A stretch of DNA of 60,401 nt, taken from the IMG/VR virus record IMGVR_UViG_3300027974_000040, positions 1 to 60,401 of that record; one strand, given 5' to 3'. Every line of letters begins with the position of its first letter. Within the stretch, counting starts at the first letter, position 1. Under the pieces are notes generated by a model. It was not told where the DNA came from. It did not search any database and was given only the letters and a program-made list of their open reading frames with translations. Below, in pieces: positions 1,314 through 37,998 of this stretch. The translations under genes and the position numbers were made by a program. This DNA is from a virus.

Positions 1314-1787
1314 ATGAAACGACTCGTACCATTCATTATCGGCACATTGGCATTAACCGCTTGTGGCACCTCGGCAACTGAAGCCCCTCGTACCGAAGCC
1401 CCAGACACGACGGTAGAGGTAGCCGAAACGACCGACGCACCAATCGCTACGGCCCCTCAAACAACCACAGCCCCAACAACCGAAGCGCCAGAACAAGGCA
1501 CACTTGGCGAGAGAAACGCAAAAGGCAATGCTGAAAGTTATTTAAATGCTATGTCCTTTTCAAAACAGGGCCTCATTGACCAACTTTTGTATGAAGGCTT
1601 CTCTCTAGCCGAAGCCGAATACGGTGTCAATGCCGTTGATGTTGACTGGAACGAGCAAGCCGCATTAAAGGCTCAAGATTATCTGGACACAATGTCCTTC
1701 TCCCGACAGGGTCTCATTGACCAACTCCTGTATGAAGGTTTCACACAGGCTCAAGTCGAGTACGGCGTAAATGCCGTCGGGTACTGA
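1314..1787 (+). CDS. Ltp-type host-surface lipoprotein, probable superinfection exclusion
   Basis: 157 residues. A signal peptide ends in a lipobox (LTAC, residues 14-17), followed by a Thr/Ala/Pro/Glu-rich spacer (18-62). Two tandem copies of the Ltp repeat follow (about 69-108 and 115-155), each reading A...YL..MSFS(K/R)QGLIDQLLYEGF...Q/EA.YGVNAV. This is the repeat of the Streptococcus phage TP-J34 lipoprotein Ltp, which sits on the host surface and blocks DNA injection by other phages. The function here is inferred from that family. Confidence 0.8.
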   Translation: MKRLVPFIIGTLALTACGTSATEAPRTEAPDTTVEVAETTDAPIATAPQTTTAPTTEAPEQGTLGERNAKGNAESYLNAMSFSKQGLIDQLLYEGFSLAEAEYGVNAVDVDWNEQAALKAQDYLDTMSFSRQGLIDQLLYEGFTQAQVEYGVNAVGY

Positions 1788-3945: not shown

Positions 3946-4568
3946 ACAAATTTCTAAAGTTATTTACCCACGAAATTTATATCGTAGCAATGCTTGGTAT
4001 TATTTCCGTGACTACGGCGTGGGCCGGAGTTCAATCATCACTTCACGGTGGGGCTTCGGATGAGGCGTACTCCGTTTATCAACTTGACCTCAGTGAATCC
4101 AACAACATGTGGATTACCTCTGAGGTTAAATACAGGGCTGACTTGACGGTTTGGAAAGACAAACAGGTGCGACTCTTGATTGATGGTGTCAGCAATGATG
4201 ATATTTATGCTGATATTCAAACATCCAATGGTTCATACGAGTTTTCTGTATATGCAACACCTTGCTTGATTGCGCAACCTCAGAGTTACCTTCCTGATTG
4301 CACTCCCTATATGGATGAGTTGTATGTCCCACAAGCAGAAGTCTGGGAAAGGGCATCCGAGTCACTCGCAGTGTCTGAGACCGAAGGTGGGCGCAGTGAC
4401 AGACTTCAGGTACTTACGGCATTATTCGCTATTTCTTTGTTTATGCTTGGTATTGCTTCGGTAATTAAGCGCAAAGAGTTGTTATTGCCATTGGTCGTCT
4501 TGGCTACGGCGCTATGGGTCTTTGGTTGTGCTGTTTTACTAAGTATCCCCAGTATCTCGTTCTTATAA
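3942..4568 (+). CDS. Membrane protein with extracytoplasmic domain
   Basis: 208 residues. A hydrophobic N-terminal segment (about 12-30) could be a signal anchor. It is followed by a roughly 115-residue soluble region with two cysteines (in TPCLI and PDCTP) likely facing outside, and then two closely spaced transmembrane helices (about 153-170 and 178-203) separated by KRKE. It is the last gene of the first forward block and converges on a reverse gene 2 nt away. Function unknown. Confidence 0.65.
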   Translation: MNKFLKLFTHEIYIVAMLGIISVTTAWAGVQSSLHGGASDEAYSVYQLDLSESNNMWITSEVKYRADLTVWKDKQVRLLIDGVSNDDIYADIQTSNGSYEFSVYATPCLIAQPQSYLPDCTPYMDELYVPQAEVWERASESLAVSETEGGRSDRLQVLTALFAISLFMLGIASVIKRKELLLPLVVLATALWVFGCAVLLSIPSISFL

Positions 4569-11900: not shown

Positions 11901-11978
11901 CGAACACTTGTTCGCACGAACACCTGTTCGCTTTTGACCTTCCAAAGTACGAACACCTGTTCCCCGAACATATGTTCT
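11901..11978. promoter_or_regulatory. Array of four LexA-type SOS boxes
   Basis: Four palindromes fit CGAAC-N4-GTTC(G): 11901-11914 (CGAACACTTGTTCG), 11917-11930 (CGAACACCTGTTCG), 11950-11963 and 11965-11978. The first two match the Gram-positive and actinobacterial LexA box exactly; the last two differ at the final base. The spacings are 16, 33 and 15 nt. The array abuts the first DnaA box at 11978, so LexA binding could control origin firing or a transcript entering the origin. Confidence 0.75.
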
Positions 11979-12257
11979 GTGGATAAGTCTGTTGATAACC
12001 CTGTGGATAAGTGCCTACGGATGTGGACGAAGCCCCGACTTTATACACACCCTTGTTGATAACCCCTTTTTACCCTACTTTATCCCCAACCCTGTTGATA
12101 ACCCTGTTGATAACCACCTTAATCAACCTGTTGATAACCCTTACTTATCCACATACCTGTTGATAAACCTGTGTATAACCCTTGCTTATCCTAAGATAGA
12201 CAGTCGTAGAGGATGACAAAAAAGTTTATCCACACCCTTATCCACACCTTATCCACA
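11978..12257. other. Putative replication origin (DnaA-box cluster)
   Basis: Perfect DnaA boxes (TGTGGATAA/TTATCCACA) lie at 11978, 12002, 12145, 12226, 12238 and 12249. Many one-mismatch boxes also occur: TGTTGATAA at 11990, 12054, 12093, 12105, 12129 and 12159; TGTGTATAA at 12170; TTATACACA at 12041; and TTATCCCCA at 12080. There is no gene here. Such a density on both strands is typical of a chromosome- or plasmid-type DnaA-dependent origin. Low-complexity DNA follows immediately. Confidence 0.75.
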
Positions 12258-12950: not shown

Positions 12951-14441
12951 CTATGCGACCAACCTATCTCCAGTCGCCAACTCGTATGCCCGTTTCATGA
13001 TATGAGGGAATGACTTAGCAGGTCGCATACCATTGCTCAACTCGGTCAGGTACTTCACAGCCGACTCAGCATCAGGCACGATAGAGATACCGTGAGCCAA
13101 GCAATACTCAACCGCCTGAAGCGTCAGTGTCTCGTGAGCCACATCACCATGACCAGTCACATACCCATCACATACCCACACGACAGGAGTGCGACTACTT
13201 CGTCGTTCACTCACTGCCCACTTCAGCACAGGTAGGTCTACAGCATTAGCAGAGCCGAACTCAGGCATCTCGTCCACCATACGACCACGACTAGCAAGGA
13301 CATAAGCATTGGTCTCAATAGCCTCGCCATTATCGTCAATGCCGAATGAGGGGACACTATAAGACAGCACAGTACATCCAGGCGATGCCATAACGATACC
13401 CATTACATCATCACGGTCAAGACGCATAGAGCCACTAGTGTCAATGACAACGATGCCACCTTGACCACGAACCGTCTTATCAAAGACACGCTTCTGAGGG
13501 TCAGTCAAGTAACGATGAAGGCGACGAGGATGTTTGCCACTATTGGATGCGACACGCTTCTTACCTAGTGACCCACTCAATACTTCAGGCATAGGCAACC
13601 GTTCCACCTTAAGAGGGAACCAAGAGGGGATAGGAGTCCTATCAACGAGAGTCTCTTTACGAGACTCAGCAAGAGCCTTATCTATCTCGCCCTTCTCATC
13701 TCTCTTTGACTCATCAGTATCAGAGGTATCAGCATCAGAGTCGTCCTTATCAGAACTATCAGTACTGTCACTCTTATCACTCTTGTCATCAGGTTGCTTA
13801 TCGCATAGGCGGTCAATCCAAGAAGCAATACTTTCGGTATAACCAAAGCCTTCTATCAGACCATCAGCAGTGAGAGAGGTGCTAGTGAGTTTGTTCCGTG
13901 GCACTTTCTTTATCTCTCTCATCGCTCGCTTACTAATGTCGGCAAGCACACTGCCCCATACCTTGTTATGTCGGCGCACTCCAGCGATGAACTTCTTATG
14001 ACCGCCCGTACCAACAGTGGCGATAGCGAACTGAACAGCATTGTTCCAGTCACCCATAGCAACGAGGCGTTCGCCTAACTCTTTCTCGCCACCATCACTA
14101 AGAACACTCATGTCATAACCCAAGTGAGTAGCGAGGTAGTTCACTCGCATCTCCTCAACAGAGCGCAGTGACTCCTCAGTTGCGAAACCCCTAGCAATGA
14201 ACGGACTCAAGTCCTTAGGGGACACCTTCGCATGAACCATCTCATGAATACGAATGACCGTAGACAGAGCGTCGCCCGACATAGGTACATTCATAAAGCG
14301 ACCCTCAACAGAGGTCACGGGTAGTCCACGGGTAGGTGGGCAGGCTTCTACAGTCCACGCACCGCCCTTGTCTACATCACCACGACCCAATACTTCAGGG
14401 AGAGGTCGGCGTGATACATCATGCTTGACCTTCACGCTCAC
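12951..14441 (-). CDS. VWA protein with N-terminal HExxH (CobT/DUF2201-like)
   Basis: 496 residues. An HEMVH motif at 66-70 (HExxH, metallopeptidase-like) lies in an N-terminal helical domain. An extreme Asp/Ser/Lys linker spans 215-250. The C-terminal von Willebrand A domain carries the MIDAS motif DTSGSM at 334-339. This order fits 'putative metallopeptidase + VWA' proteins and CobT-like partners of MoxR/CobS ATPases. It overlaps the ATPase gene by 4 nt (ATGA), so the pair is translationally coupled. Probably an ATP-driven remodelling complex; the target is unknown. Confidence 0.8.
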   Translation of the reverse strand: MSVKVKHDVSRRPLPEVLGRGDVDKGGAWTVEACPPTRGLPVTSVEGRFMNVPMSGDALSTVIRIHEMVHAKVSPKDLSPFIARGFATEESLRSVEEMRVNYLATHLGYDMSVLSDGGEKELGERLVAMGDWNNAVQFAIATVGTGGHKKFIAGVRRHNKVWGSVLADISKRAMREIKKVPRNKLTSTSLTADGLIEGFGYTESIASWIDRLCDKQPDDKSDKSDSTDSSDKDDSDADTSDTDESKRDEKGEIDKALAESRKETLVDRTPIPSWFPLKVERLPMPEVLSGSLGKKRVASNSGKHPRRLHRYLTDPQKRVFDKTVRGQGGIVVIDTSGSMRLDRDDVMGIVMASPGCTVLSYSVPSFGIDDNGEAIETNAYVLASRGRMVDEMPEFGSANAVDLPVLKWAVSERRSSRTPVVWVCDGYVTGHGDVAHETLTLQAVEYCLAHGISIVPDAESAVKYLTELSNGMRPAKSFPHIMKRAYELATGDRLVA

Positions 14442-15154
14442 GACAGTGAGTCCACTCGCATCGCATCCATGATTGCGCCAGCACGGTCACCGAACACAAT
14501 CTCCGCACTCTCCTCAACAGAGAGGGATGAACGCAGTTGGTCAAAGGCGTAGAACGCTCGCAGTGAGATGCGCTCCTTGCCAGCATCAGCCATACGAACA
14601 GCGATACCACGCAGGTCTACTGACAAACGCTCAATCGCATCAGGGTGCGGTTCGTCAATGCGAATACGAACAGGGAAGCGGTCAGTGAGTGCCGTTGGCA
14701 ACTCTCTCATGTTCTCAATGTTCGTGGTCATCACCACAGAGAAACCGTTACGAGGCTTATGGATATTGCCAGTCTCAGGGTGTTCCCACGAGGCAGACTC
14801 AGGTGAGTCAAAGAACGAGAGCAAGGTAGCAAGCACATCGCCACCAGCCTTGTCAATCTCGTCAGCAACGACTCGTCCACCTGAGTAGCCGTTACCTTCC
14901 CAAGCCCTCAGTGCCGAACCGCTAACCCATGAGAAACCGCCATTAGCGGAAGGCATGAATGAACCCGATACATCGGCGTTTGTCATATCCTCAGTACATA
15001 CGAGTCTGAAAGCACCGCCACGGGTATCTCCGTAGTTGAGTCCCCCGTAGGTCTTGCCCGTACCCGATGGTCCGAACAGAATGATGCGGTCAATACCGCC
15101 CTCAAGTGCGTTCTTGTACTTCTGCCAACACTTTGGCAAGTCAATGGTGGTCAT
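14438..15154 (-). CDS. MoxR/CobS-like AAA+ ATPase
   Basis: 238 residues from the ATG at 15154, chosen because AGGGAGAAAACA precedes it; an upstream in-frame ATG at 15184 lacks a site. Walker A is GPSGTGKT (28-35), Walker B is VVADEID, sensor 1 lies in VVMTTNIEN, and an arginine-finger region reads LTDRFPVRIRI. MoxR/CobS-type ATPases work with VWA proteins to remodel other proteins, and the VWA partner follows directly. Phages carry such pairs, but their role is not established. Confidence 0.85.
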   Translation of the reverse strand: MTTIDLPKCWQKYKNALEGGIDRIILFGPSGTGKTYGGLNYGDTRGGAFRLVCTEDMTNADVSGSFMPSANGGFSWVSGSALRAWEGNGYSGGRVVADEIDKAGGDVLATLLSFFDSPESASWEHPETGNIHKPRNGFSVVMTTNIENMRELPTALTDRFPVRIRIDEPHPDAIERLSVDLRGIAVRMADAGKERISLRAFYAFDQLRSSLSVEESAEIVFGDRAGAIMDAMRVDSLS

Positions 15155-15194
15155 TGTTTTCTCCCTATTTGTAGTAGTGGGCATTTGCCCTTGT

Positions 15195-22981: not shown

Positions 22982-23007
22982 ATCTTTCCGATAAATCTCA
23001 ACTGAGG

Positions 23008-34067: not shown

Positions 34068-34101
34068 CCAACTAAGGAAATCACCGAACCGATAGATGAA
34101 T
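34068..34101 (+). promoter_or_regulatory. Class A promoter, leaderless start at 34102
   Basis: DnaA box 34051-34059, 8 nt, CCAAC-N17-CGATA, 7 nt, ATG. Confidence 0.8.
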
Positions 34102-34362
34102 ATGACAAACAACTTGAAAATCGCACAGCAGGCATATCAGCGTGGCTACGAAATAGGTACAGCCGACGCAGTCGTTGGAATGTTCACGCTTGAGGACACC
34201 GAGCCTTGGGATTATGTTTCCGACCTATGGCTCATTGCCGTTGTGTTCGGGGACAATGACAACCCCAACAGCGACGAAAAAGTCAAGGCTGGACTCATTG
34301 CAATGTTTGAGAATGGCTACACACAGGGCTACGACGAAATAGCAGGAATGGTGACCAAGTGA
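34102..34362 (+). CDS. Hypothetical small protein, leaderless
   Basis: 86 residues from the ATG at 34102 (an ATG two codons earlier lies inside the promoter). Helical, Gly-rich (AQQAYQRGYEIGTADAVVGMF). Unknown function. Confidence 0.6.
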   Translation: MTNNLKIAQQAYQRGYEIGTADAVVGMFTLEDTEPWDYVSDLWLIAVVFGDNDNPNSDEKVKAGLIAMFENGYTQGYDEIAGMVTK

Positions 34363-34667
34363 ACACTCTCCCCAATGGCGTGTACGGCATCGTTGATGTC
34401 AAGACTGACCCCGTGTACGGGGCTGTCGGCGTTATGGCATTTTTGACTTATAGGTTCAGTTGGTTCAGTCCGCAGTTTTATCTGAACACGGGTCTTAACT
34501 CCGTTTGCGTTGAGCCAATCCGCAATAGGTGGCGCAATGGTGGGGCACCTCGCTATGTTCGCTTCGTGGGGACAGACAAGGTGTACCGATACAGAGGTTT
34601 AAGTGGGCTGTGGTACGGGCGTTCTCGCTCACTACTCATTCCCGTGACACACCCCTCAATGCGATGA
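34359..34667 (+). CDS. Hypothetical basic protein
   Basis: 102 residues, GTG start with GTGA overlap. Beta-rich; basic, aromatic end (RFVGTDKVYRYRGLSGLWYGRSRSLL). Unknown function. Confidence 0.5.
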   Translation: MNTLPNGVYGIVDVKTDPVYGAVGVMAFLTYRFSWFSPQFYLNTGLNSVCVEPIRNRWRNGGAPRYVRFVGTDKVYRYRGLSGLWYGRSRSLLIPVTHPSMR

Positions 34668-34852
34668 CATTCGCTGACTTCCTCAACGCCGTTCACCAGC
34701 GTTACCAAGAGTGCGGGGCTCACATTCCGTTCTCTGAGTGCTTCGTGATGGAACTCAAAGAACTCCGACCTGAGTTATTGCCTAAGCAACGGGTGAATAG
34801 GCGAGTCAGAGTAACTGAAAAGGACTTTGCTTACATACGCAAGGCGTGGTGA
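34664..34852 (+). CDS. Hypothetical small protein
   Basis: 62 residues from the ATG at 34664 (ATGA overlap). Helical start (TFADFLNAVHQRYQECGA) and basic end (RRVRVTEKDFAYIRKAW). Unknown function. Confidence 0.5.
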   Translation: MTFADFLNAVHQRYQECGAHIPFSECFVMELKELRPELLPKQRVNRRVRVTEKDFAYIRKAW

Positions 34853-34865
34853 CTAGCCCCGTTTT

Positions 34866-35093
34866 TTACCACCAAGAGTCAGGATTGCCGTTCGGGTCAT
34901 TTAGTTTGATTATCGCAACGCTGAAGTGTTGCTGTGACACCCACGAACGAACATCGTCAAGAGTGGCGAACGGACCCCAGTAAACAGTCGGACCCATTCG
35001 TGTCCGCATAGCCATAAATGGACCTTTGTTGAACTCTTCCATTTCCTCGGGGCTAGGAACGCCGTCAATAAAGACGCTGGCATTGTCATTCAT
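34866..35093 (-). CDS. Hypothetical small protein
   Basis: 75 residues from the ATG at 35093, which overlaps the stop of the upstream gene; the longer frame up to 35183 would run through that gene. Contains DNASVFIDGVPSPEEMEEFNKGPFMAMRTRMGPTVYWGPFATLDDV. Unknown function. Confidence 0.55.
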   Translation of the reverse strand: MNDNASVFIDGVPSPEEMEEFNKGPFMAMRTRMGPTVYWGPFATLDDVRSWVSQQHFSVAIIKLNDPNGNPDSWW

Positions 35094-35262
35094 CATCGCC
35101 GTAATCACATTCCTGCCCGTCGCACGAACCAAAGTTTTTACAGAACGACTCGTAGTTGAGACACTCAGGGTCACGACTTTCATTCACGACAACAACTTCG
35201 GAGTCCCGACTTCCACGACTCTTGCCGATTTTGTAGGCGACGATGTTAGAAATGATGCCCAT
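35086..35262 (-). CDS. Small cysteine-rich protein
   Basis: 58 residues: GIISNIVAYKIGKSRGSRDSEVVVVNESRDPECLNYESFCKNFGSCDGQECDYGDD. Four cysteines in 25 residues suggest a zinc or cluster site. The 'MGI..n...YkiGk....' opening with a later 'DPEC.ny..FC...GsC.g..C.Y' is typical of small phage/plasmid proteins. Couples to both neighbours. Confidence 0.55.
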   Translation of the reverse strand: MGIISNIVAYKIGKSRGSRDSEVVVVNESRDPECLNYESFCKNFGSCDGQECDYGDDE

Positions 35263-35468
35263 TACTTCTCCTGCTCAGGTTTGGGGCAACTTCCGATGTG
35301 ATAGTTACCCTTGCCACGAACCCAAGTAAAGGTTTCGCCCTCAGCAATGAGCCTATCGCAACGGCGACATTTAGTGCCACCATCGCTAACGAACGCCTTA
35401 ATGCCCGAGCGGTTAAAGTTGTTTATGTTGGCTACTTTGCCAACTTCGGGATAGATAAACTCTGTCAT
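35262..35468 (-). CDS. Small zinc-finger protein, leaderless
   Basis: 68 residues from the ATG at 35468 (class A, DnaA box). CRRCDRLIAEGETFTWVRGKGNYHIGSC is a C-x2-C ... H-x3-C zinc finger, similar in layout to the one at 58919. Unknown function. Confidence 0.65.
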   Translation of the reverse strand: MTEFIYPEVGKVANINNFNRSGIKAFVSDGGTKCRRCDRLIAEGETFTWVRGKGNYHIGSCPKPEQEK

Positions 35469-35502
35469 ACTCACTTATCGGTTCGGGAGTTTTATTAGTT
35501 GT
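35469..35502 (-). promoter_or_regulatory. Class A promoter, leaderless start at 35468
   Basis: DnaA box 35511-35519 at 8 nt, ACAAC-N17-CGATA, 7 nt, ATG. Divergent from the next class A copy. Confidence 0.8.
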
Positions 35503-35539
35503 CTCAGAACTTATCCACACCTTGTGGATAAACAAACAC

Positions 35540-35573
35540 GCAACTAACGAGATACCCATACCGATACATAGAT
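35540..35573 (+). promoter_or_regulatory. Class A promoter, leaderless start at 35574
   Basis: DnaA box 35523-35531, 8 nt, GCAAC-N17-CGATA, 7 nt, ATG. Back-to-back with the reverse copy; only 3 nt separate the two DnaA boxes. Confidence 0.8.
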
Positions 35574-35780
35574 ATGACCACCACCTACGCCGAGCGCACA
35601 ACGCAGGCAATGACCATTTCCGAACTCATCAGCGCAATCGCTGGAGTCCAAGCCCTCATCTCTGCTGGAGTTGAGTCACCGTTCTGCCCTTTCGTCACCA
35701 ACGAAAACTTGGGCATAGCGTACGCCAGACTCAGCGAGACAATGGCTCGTATGGCTAGTCGTATGGCTAACGAACTCTGA
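35574..35780 (+). CDS. Small helical protein, leaderless
   Basis: 68 residues: MTISELISAIAGVQALISAG ... LSETMARMASRMANEL, almost all helix. Unknown function. A row of hairpins follows. Confidence 0.6.
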   Translation: MTTTYAERTTQAMTISELISAIAGVQALISAGVESPFCPFVTNENLGIAYARLSETMARMASRMANEL

Positions 35781-35793
35781 GTCACGGGCTAGG

Positions 35794-35905
35794 GGGTGGG
35801 GCGCAAGCCCTGCCCTAAGACATCTCCCCCGACAACCTTCACCTAATCCCTGTTATGTCGGGGAGACGGCACCCTCACACCCTCGACTTGGTGTGGGGGT
35901 GCTTC
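35794..35905 (+). terminator. Cluster of three strong hairpins
   Basis: GGGTGGGGC-GCAA-GCCCTGCCC (35794-35815), TCTCCCCCGACA...TGTCGGGGAGA (35823-35866) and GCACCCTCACACC...GGTGTGGGGGTGC (35869-35902) followed by TTCGCTTT. Three in a row without a gene suggest a terminator plus a structured RNA end. Confidence 0.6.
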
Positions 35906-35954
35906 GCTTTATCCCCGTAAATGCTACTGTGACGGCGGGACCTCGGAGAACTCA

Positions 35955-36320
35955 ATGGCTGTCTATAACATCAACATAACCTTCACCACAGATGACGACG
36001 CAACTGACTTGGAACTCGGCGACTTGACCATTGGTATAGCGGACATACTCAACTGCCCGCAGGTTGAGAGCCCCGATGGTGAGTGGGTTACAGCCGATTA
36101 CGAGATTGACTCTTTTGTCTTGGACTTATACGAGGATAGCGGTGACCGTGTGTGGCGACATACGCTGAACCCACACAGATTATTGGAGATGGTTCACCAA
36201 CAAAACCTTCCTCATTGGAATGACTCTTTGCCAGAAAACGAAGAGCGGTCACGCTCGGATGCGGGACTCGGGTGGCTCAACCGACTGTTCGGGCATAAGA
36301 ATAAAAAGTCGCCCAACTAA
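35955..36320 (+). CDS. Hypothetical protein
   Basis: 121 residues behind CTCGGAGAACTCA. Acidic and beta-rich first half (INITFTTDDDATDLELGDLTI), then helical, basic tail. The end (KKSPN) is encoded by the next class A element. Promoter not obvious. Confidence 0.6.
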   Translation: MAVYNINITFTTDDDATDLELGDLTIGIADILNCPQVESPDGEWVTADYEIDSFVLDLYEDSGDRVWRHTLNPHRLLEMVHQQNLPHWNDSLPENEERSRSDAGLGWLNRLFGHKNKKSPN

Positions 36321-36346
36321 CGAAACTCCCATACCGATAGATAGGT
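36313..36346 (+). promoter_or_regulatory. Class A promoter with leader
   Basis: CCAAC-N17-CGATA, no DnaA box (AATAAAAAGTCG flank). Predicted start at 36347, then 26 nt with GAGAGGGAG before the ATG at 36373: one of the few class A copies with a leader. Confidence 0.7.
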
Positions 36347-36372
36347 ACACCTACAGAGAGGGAGTACCTATC

Positions 36373-36744
36373 ATGGGCTCACGAGGACATATCGGCATCG
36401 TTCAGAGTACGAACGCAACGCCTATCTACTTCTATACACATTGGCACGGCGATGACATTGCTCGCATATTGGCTGAAGGCTTATACAAGGCACACGATAA
36501 CGGCAGGCTTGACGATGAGACATACGCTAGTCGCATTATCTTTGACACCCTTACGGGTTGTACGGGCGAGGCAACGGGCTACGGCATTATGGTCGGAGAA
36601 CCAGCAGGCGATAATGAATACCCTATCCCTACAGTATTCTTTCAGGGAGATGGAGAGCCGTTCATTGTTTACGAGGATAAGCGATACTCAGCAAGAAACT
36701 TCATTGTCACCCACGCTGAGTGGAGAGCAAGTCTGATGACATGA
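36373..36744 (+). CDS. Hypothetical protein
   Basis: 123 residues from the ATG at 36373, set by GAGAGGGAG and the class A promoter. Opening GSRGHIGIVQSTNATPIYFYTHWHGDDIARILAEGL (a 'YtHw.G..l...l.....' pattern) is found in small phage proteins of unknown role; also ASRIIFDTLTGCTGEATGYGIM. Unknown function. Confidence 0.65.
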   Translation: MGSRGHIGIVQSTNATPIYFYTHWHGDDIARILAEGLYKAHDNGRLDDETYASRIIFDTLTGCTGEATGYGIMVGEPAGDNEYPIPTVFFQGDGEPFIVYEDKRYSARNFIVTHAEWRASLMT

Positions 36745-37130
36745 CCATTATCCATATTTGTTATCGCCCATTCTCACATTCACTCACGCTATGGAGTGAT
36801 GTAGATAACACGATGACTGACGAAGAGCGAGGCAGGTTGGATTGCTCATATATTGACGCACCCGAAAATGGGGACTGGCATGTCGCTATCGCCACTAGAC
36901 ACGCCGACGGGTTGGATTACTTTCACTCAATGACAGCACTTGATGTGTTTGAGAGCGGGGCTGGTTGGAACTTGTTTCTGAGCAACTACTTAGCCGATGA
37001 AGTCATTGAGGAAATATACGAACTCGTCTCCCTATGGGATAGCGTAGGAACGCCAAGCAACTTGCGTGAGGCGGTACTCATGCGATACATGGAAACGGTT
37101 GTCGTTGATGGCGACTGCCTAATCACCTGA
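36741..37130 (+). CDS. Hypothetical protein, paralogue of 43586
   Basis: 129 residues from the ATG at 36741 (ATGA overlap). YRPFSHSLTLWSDVDNTMTDEERGRLDCSY ... FHSMTALDVFESGAGWNLFLSNYLADE shares its order and the GAGWNLFL block with 43586. A conserved two-copy family of this genome; function unknown. Confidence 0.65.
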   Translation: MTIIHICYRPFSHSLTLWSDVDNTMTDEERGRLDCSYIDAPENGDWHVAIATRHADGLDYFHSMTALDVFESGAGWNLFLSNYLADEVIEEIYELVSLWDSVGTPSNLREAVLMRYMETVVVDGDCLIT

Positions 37131-37186
37131 TGCTGCCGAAGCCCCGAGTTATCCACACCCTGTGGACAAATAAATCTATACACAGG

Positions 37187-37221
37187 TTGTTTCTTATACC
37201 AATAGACAGTTTGCTGAAGTA
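37187..37221 (+). promoter_or_regulatory. Class B promoter, leaderless GTG start at 37222
   Basis: TTGTTT, 17 nt, TTTGCT, 6 nt, GTG; AATAAATCT upstream. A DnaA box (TTATCCACA) and a one-mismatch copy (TGTGGACAA) lie about 20-40 nt further up. Confidence 0.65.
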
Positions 37222-37572
37222 GTGAACACAACACATCGCAGGATGTTCTTGCTTGCTGGCTATTTGACCTCTGTTTACATAGGCGCAATAGCAACCTATG
37301 GAGTCACAGAACACCACAATGCTTGGGACTCTGCTTGGTGGGGAATGATGACGCTTACCACTGTTGGCTACGGCGACGAGTACCCTCACACTGTCAGTGG
37401 CAGGATTATGGGCATACTGTTAGTTATGTCTGCCGTGTTCGTGGTTGTACCAACGATTACGGCGTTCATCGCAACCAAGTTCATAGTTGATGACGACGCT
37501 TGGACTCACGACGAACAAGAGCAAGTCAAAGACGACCTCAAAGAAGTCTTGAGAATACTCAAGGGCGAATAA
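37222..37572 (+). CDS. Two-TM potassium channel-like protein
   Basis: 116 residues with a leaderless GTG start. TM1 spans 8-27; a pore helix (about 34-45, AWDSAWWGMMTL) leads to the selectivity filter TTVGYGD at 46-52; TM2 spans 60-84; an acidic/basic coil follows (96-114). This is the KcsA-like pore domain with all filter residues intact; four copies would form a K+-selective channel in the host membrane. It is close to minimal size, like viral Kcv channels, although those come from algal viruses. Confidence 0.9.
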   Translation: MNTTHRRMFLLAGYLTSVYIGAIATYGVTEHHNAWDSAWWGMMTLTTVGYGDEYPHTVSGRIMGILLVMSAVFVVVPTITAFIATKFIVDDDAWTHDEQEQVKDDLKEVLRILKGE

Positions 37573-37580
37573 ATAATGAC

Positions 37581-37614
37581 CCAACTAACGGAATAGTGAT
37601 ACCGATATATGGAT
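37581..37614 (+). promoter_or_regulatory. Class A promoter without DnaA box, start at 37615
   Basis: CCAAC-N17-CGATA, 7 nt, ATG; GAATAAATAATGA flank. Confidence 0.8.
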
Positions 37615-37998
37615 ATGACCACCACAACAACCGCCACACTCACCAATACTTGTACCTGCGTCACTTACAACGATGACTCAGGCGACTGGGATGAAGCCCC
37701 CGAATGTTGGGGAGACTGCTGGACTGACCAAGTTGAGCATTTTCAGGAAATTACGGAACACTTGTTCACCGAAAACAACCAAGAGTTTCGCATTGAGGGC
37801 TTCCCCCGATGGGATGGAACGGTCAGCGGAACATTTCACGCCCGAACCGCCGAAAAATTGCTTGAGTCAATTACGCCTGACCGCACTGAATGGCGTTTAG
37901 AACTTACCGTTCACGCCACTCACCTGACGGGCTTTCTTTCGCACCACGACGCTAGCGGAACTATCACCGTCACTCCCATTGAGGTGAATGACGAATGA
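37615..37998 (+). CDS. Hypothetical protein, leaderless
   Basis: 127 residues from the ATG at 37615. Cys/Trp-rich opening (CTCVTYNDDSGDWDEAPECWGDCW), then strands (FRIEGFPRWDGTVSGTF and WRLELTVHATHLTGFLSHHDASGTITV). The later part looks like a small beta domain. ATGA overlap with the next gene. Unknown family. Confidence 0.6.
   Translation: MTTTTTATLTNTCTCVTYNDDSGDWDEAPECWGDCWTDQVEHFQEITEHLFTENNQEFRIEGFPRWDGTVSGTFHARTAEKLLESITPDRTEWRLELTVHATHLTGFLSHHDASGTITVTPIEVNDE

Follow-up and report, generated by a model that had tools for sequence, protein, structure and literature searches.

A K+-channel gene carried as a dispensable one-gene cassette by a phage of actinobacteria

We analysed a stretch of 60,401 bp (the window), which is an entire IMG/VR virus record, and found that it encodes a K+-channel pore protein as a dispensable single-gene accessory cassette, made up of its own class B repeat element and the coding sequence, within a variable region of small genes. 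The best explanation as a whole, to which we assign a probability of about 0.6, is that this cassette would provide the phage with a K+ channel acting as an ion shunt during host takeover. The least certain part is the benefit of the shunt: taken by itself, an ion or potential shunt during infection has about even odds of being the physiological role of the channel. Channels of this kind are already known from phage sequences, and the one in the window is not new in that respect. What is added here is that short phage channels and sporadic bacterial ones appear to have in common a cytosolic T-x-x-E-Q motif and a proline in the second transmembrane helix (M2), both invariant.

The channel gene occupies 37222..37572 on the plus strand and encodes 116 residues from a GTG start. 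An earlier note on this DNA had described a two-TM ORF with that length and start, a TTVGYGD filter, a pore helix and a C-terminal coil, and its coordinates were reproduced exactly. The first transmembrane helix (M1) is encoded at 37228-37311, the pore helix at 37321-37356, the filter TTVGYGD (residues 46-52) at 37357-37377, M2 at 37393-37485 with the invariant P77 at 37450-37452, and the cytosolic helix with the T-x-x-E-Q motif, in the C-terminal part, at 37504-37560. Two TMs around a pore helix and a T-x-G-[YF]-G filter are the arrangement of the K+ channel pore superfamily PF07885 (Ion_trans_2), whose Pfam profile matches residues 15-83 (E 4e-11). The phage family profile phrog_14690 matches residues 10-114, nearly the full length, inside a virus record (E 1.1e-28). 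Among solved sequences, the nearest are KCNQ2, Lmo2059 and KcsA, all of them K+ channels. The structure prediction that had been proposed as a check was obtained with AlphaFold, with an alignment of 41 homologues as input, and gave a mean pLDDT of 88.7 and a pTM of 0.65, with helices at residues 3-30 (M1), 34-45 (pore helix), 58-88 (M2) and 96-113 (C-terminal). Foldseek returned a K+-channel pore fold for this model, KcsA being the best match (TM-scores up to about 0.7 for the query and 0.79 for the target), together with NaK2K, MthK and Kv pores. The best E-value against the PDB, 2.8e-3, is modest, as would be expected of a short protein. Among viral models, a 114-aa "potassium channel" of an uncultured Caudovirales phage matched at 44% identity and a TM-score of 0.79. 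Thus, Pfam, PHROG, AlphaFold and Foldseek confidently identify the protein as a K+-channel pore, at a significance well beyond chance, and it would be expected to conduct K+. Its tail (residues 88-116) contains 10 acidic and 4 basic residues.

The window encodes a primase/helicase, an SNF2-type helicase, an SSB and a replication-initiation-like protein, as judged from Pfam and PHROG matches, and three WhiB-like regulators; no terminal repeat was found in its 60,401 bp. WhiB is an actinophage marker (PMC10202952) and is present in 9 of 11 related contigs; the window is a virus of actinobacteria. Judging from the nearest chromosomal channels, its host probably lives in freshwater. A second assembly, G009 (L258/L259), is 99.98% identical to window positions 1-22990 and stops short of the channel; this confirms the window's left part, and the channel itself is seen in one assembly only. 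The left part also contains an AAA ATPase gene paired with a gene for a 496-aa partner (12951-15184, minus strand). The ATPase was found in 126 IMG/VR stretches, several of which lie on contigs from phages with WhiB; in the record L016, a similar pair directly adjoins a channel gene.

The limits of the cassette were defined by comparison with a near-twin phage contig, IMGVR_UViG_3300027732_000054 (G010). It is colinear with window positions 12871-50629, mostly at 82-96% identity and interrupted by local gaps and rearrangements. The alignment breaks off at 37162 and restarts at 37630, so that the 467 bp of segment 37163..37629 (plus strand) correspond to 108 bp in the colinear, about 90% identical contig. 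Within this segment lie the class B element, the entire channel gene and the beginnings of the following leader and gene. What G010 lacks is the channel gene with its class B element, at a place bounded by a pair of TTATCCACA-like boxes on one side and by the following gene's leader on the other. The boxes in the window (TTATCCACA and TGTGGACAA, DnaA-box-like, 37149..37174) stand just upstream of the cassette, and the left junction of the insertion falls here. The left neighbour (36720..37130, plus strand, 136 aa) belongs to the G010-colinear block 34070-37162 and the right neighbour (37609..37998, plus strand, 129 aa) is kept in G010; neither has an assigned function. The virus record and the synteny of both flanks with a related phage contig bear out the earlier view that the gene is phage-borne, and a host-chromosome origin of the locus was rejected on the colinearity of these flanks. 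Other gaps of 200-500 bp occur on either side of the window/G010 comparison, and the region as a whole therefore varies by small steps. Of 35 related contigs, 34 identified by a scan for the AAA ATPase gene and one being the L016 record, five carry the channel, its distance from the ATPase gene varying; the contigs are incomplete, so counts of channel absence are upper bounds. Since G010 lacks the channel and only these five related contigs carry it, the gene is optional cargo.

The class B element of the channel gene (37170..37224, plus strand) ends on the start codon and carries AGGTTGT at 37184, 38 nt before the GTG at 37222. The same motif is found at 23005, 24608, 26496 and 29787, each time with a start codon exactly 38 nt further downstream (23043, 24646, 26534 and 29825). 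The recurrence of this exact spacing supports the GTG start. Of the earlier proposal of a leaderless class B promoter with a GTG start, the start codon is thus supported and the element is a real repeat, while promoter activity with a leaderless mRNA is a function that it may have. The 3' half of the channel's copy is degenerate (GTTTGCTGAAG compared with GTTCACTGAAC), and channel expression may therefore be weak. About 11 copies of the class B consensus, AAATCTn6AGGTTGTTATTACTACTAATAGn3GTTCACTGAACTTATG, are spread over 15.2-37.2 kb of the window on both strands, with the palindrome AGTTCANTGAACT directly ahead of the start codon; the AAA ATPase gene (15184, minus strand) is among those with a copy in front.

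The next gene has its class A repeat element (37567..37615, plus strand) immediately after the channel stop codon. All 25 class A elements of the window (24.5 to 46.2 kb) read CAACTA, and all 18 of G010 (L256/L257) read GAACTA, the switch being at a fixed position ahead of CCGATA...ATG. Such a concerted switch points to altered specificity of a regulator or sigma factor, with all sites following. Also abundant in the window are TTATCCACA, with 33 copies between 11978 and 46141, and TTATNCACA, with 36 copies where about 1.5 are expected, eight of its sites being clustered in 11978-12257. TTATCCACA is found at most 45 nt upstream of 15 of the 23 plus-strand class A elements, and G010 and G011 contain 35 and 18 repeat copies of the TTATCCACA/TTATNCACA type, respectively. 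These could be either DnaA-box-like sites or stoperator-like repeats.

K+ channels had been called rare in bacteriophages in the earlier note. This does not agree with the existence of a PHROGs family (phrog_14690), with the 35 INPHARED records in which tblastn detected relatives (phages of Aeromonas, Pseudomonas, Acinetobacter, Streptomyces and Mycobacterium, and other phages), or with the channels of Myrna, Phabba, ME3, ventosus and BillNye described by Greiner et al. 2018 (PMC6163359). In IMG/VR, a scan with the channel protein alone gave no close relative; alignment-based scans found 199 relatives (stretches), longer channels of 230-260 aa among them, with search patterns made of the filter and the C-terminal motif, which members lacking both could escape. 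In the 41 homologues, bacterial ones included and about 23-53% identical, E30, G49-Y50-G51-D52, P77, T95, E98 and Q99 are invariant. The motif after M2, defined here as [FW]-T-x-x-E-Q, reads WTHDEQ in the window channel. Some otherwise similar short channels (L043, L049 and L051, for example) have no T-x-x-E-Q as matched, and the short INPHARED members, found by plain tblastn without a motif requirement, all show it. One of the phage loci, in phiPsa397 (L012), contains a full 119-aa channel ORF at 3953-4309; the record annotates only 4130-4312 (61 aa, hypothetical) at that ORF, with an apparently misannotated start.

A search of bacterial contigs, with a 10-sequence alignment as query, revealed sporadic homologues on the chromosomes of freshwater actinobacteria, sphingomonads and Burkholderiales. 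The gene of the actinobacterium IMCC26077 is on the chromosome, flanked by metabolic genes, and a close match exists in 4 of 121 sampled genomes of its order. Nearly identical channels were seen in two MAGs labelled Candidatus Fonsibacter lacus (L102) and Bifidobacterium breve (L104), which are likely mislabelled or contaminated bins. In a tree of sequences chosen, like those for the structural model, by the C-terminal motif, the window channel and those of two other phage contigs form a phage-only clade (support 100/99), to which the freshwater-actinobacterial branch is sister with moderate support (86/84). The tree requires at least 4-5 changes between phages and bacteria, and hence several phage/host exchanges of short channels. 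Repeated transfer agrees with Greiner et al. 2018 (PMC6163359), who argued that viral K+ channels were acquired several times and have no common origin; the short forms nonetheless appear to share one cytosolic motif. In six close phage pairs of the family, dN/dS ranges from 0.01 to 0.40, which shows purifying selection in other phage members, the window channel being saturated against its nearest relatives. A broader reading, which we offer tentatively and hold to be rather unlikely, is that short channels from phages and the sporadic ones from bacteria would be one family, marked by the invariant T-x-x-E-Q module and M2 proline and traded repeatedly between phage and host, in which the module gates the pore by the cytoplasmic state of the infected cell, making a state- or ligand-gated K+ shunt a tool of takeover.

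In the mechanism that we propose, four copies of the protein would assemble into a KcsA-type, K+-selective pore (a homotetramer) in the infected actinobacterium's inner membrane. The acidic C-terminal helix probably helps tetramer assembly, as in KcsA, and the M2 proline may be the site of gating, which the T-x-x-E-Q motif could tune. This invariant proline is 25 residues past the filter Asp, presumably near the position of the gate motif of Kv channels. As a host-takeover ion shunt, the pore would pull the potential of the infected cell towards E_K, with K+ leaving through it, or entering when external K+ is high. Potential and ion balance would thus be stabilised while host transport fails, rather than the cell being depolarised or lysed. 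With about 150 mM K+ inside and 0.02-0.5 mM outside, the calculated E_K is about -240 to -150 mV, and an open channel would therefore hold or deepen the inside-negative potential and release K+. Because E_K is so negative at low external K+, depolarisation of the host, as suggested in the earlier note, is an unlikely purpose in freshwater; at 5 mM external K+, where E_K is about -91 mV, a modest depolarisation could occur.

Next to the shunt in our order of preference stands superinfection exclusion, in which an early change in membrane potential or ion gradients bars the DNA of a second phage, as proposed for the chlorovirus Kcv. This function would suit a small K+ channel that has an upstream element to itself and lies in a small-gene region, the accessory distribution between near-twin phages fits competition among phages, and T4/T5-type genome entry involves K+ fluxes, according to work as cited in PMC6163359. 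We nevertheless judge this role unlikely: the phage already possesses a dedicated Ltp-like exclusion lipoprotein (1314-1787, plus strand; PF07553, 1.2e-29; PHROG superinfection exclusion, 3.9e-36), and an open K+ channel in low-K+ water would hyperpolarise the cell, not depolarise it. It is less likely again that the channel hitchhikes as a gene of host origin, a sporadic channel of actinobacteria acquired by recombination, from which the phage gains little or nothing. The chromosomal homologues of freshwater actinobacteria, such as that of IMCC26077 between metabolic genes, the number of phage/bacteria changes in the tree and the lack of the gene in the near-twin are all compatible with such an origin. 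However, the well-supported clade with two other phage contigs points to a history in phages, phage lineages show low dN/dS, unrelated phages also have the channel, and the host pool is thin in the order tested.

A holin-like or lysis-timing device, which would collapse the membrane at the end of infection, had also been suggested, and a phage-encoded membrane protein that is small and has two TMs invites that comparison. We find it highly improbable and rejected holin identity: the selective filter is kept under purifying selection, and a separate holin-like ORF (weak PHROG holin match) is located at 385-651, 36.6 kb away. A holin gene would be expected next to an endolysin or spanin gene; the neighbours here are small genes without assigned function, and no endolysin adjoins the channel in the window or in the annotated 2TM phage loci that we read, where it is not beside lysis genes and is often among other accessory genes. 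We retain the host-takeover ion shunt as the preferred role.

The shared C-terminal motif indicates that the short phage channels form a single family that has cellular members, and the near-twin phage without only this cassette at this place constitutes a natural presence/absence pair. No functional study of a phage K+ channel was found in the open-access literature; the cultivable carriers Myrna, Phabba and BillNye make the role of the channel in infection directly testable.

Several known channels can be compared with that of the window. The K+ channels of vibriophages (phi-pp2, nt-1 and others) are likewise phage-borne, and have 149-228 aa and a GFGD filter (PMC6163359). The members of phrog_14690 (annotated "cAMP-dependent Kef-type K+ transporter"), namely those of Myrna (gp260), Phabba, BillNye, ME3, ventosus and LAh_8, resemble the window channel in length (117-126 aa), in their two TMs and GYGD filter, and in having T-x-x-E-Q after M2. 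Their identity to it is about 24-40%, and unlike them, the window channel falls in its own clade with two contigs, belongs to another phage group and sits in a class B cassette. The 2TM channels of freshwater actinobacteria (L102-L107 and L109, e.g. IMCC26077) are 42-47% identical and share the architecture and a C-terminal motif of the type IVNRDAFTHEEQEEMK, but the IMCC26077 copy is chromosomal, has metabolic gene neighbours and lies on a separate branch. KcsA of Streptomyces lividans has the same 2TM pore, WW in the pore helix, TVGYGD and a C-terminal helix; at about 25% identity, it differs from the window channel, which has the invariant M2 proline and a shorter cytosolic tail. The position that we take to correspond to KcsA Glu71 is Met in the window channel. 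Finally, Kcv of the chloroviruses is likewise a minimal viral K+ channel, but its hosts are algae, and algal-virus channels match the window channel weakly in the structure search. Kcv-type channels end soon after M2, whereas the window channel continues into a conserved C-terminal helix (residues 96-113) and is not of this pore-only type.
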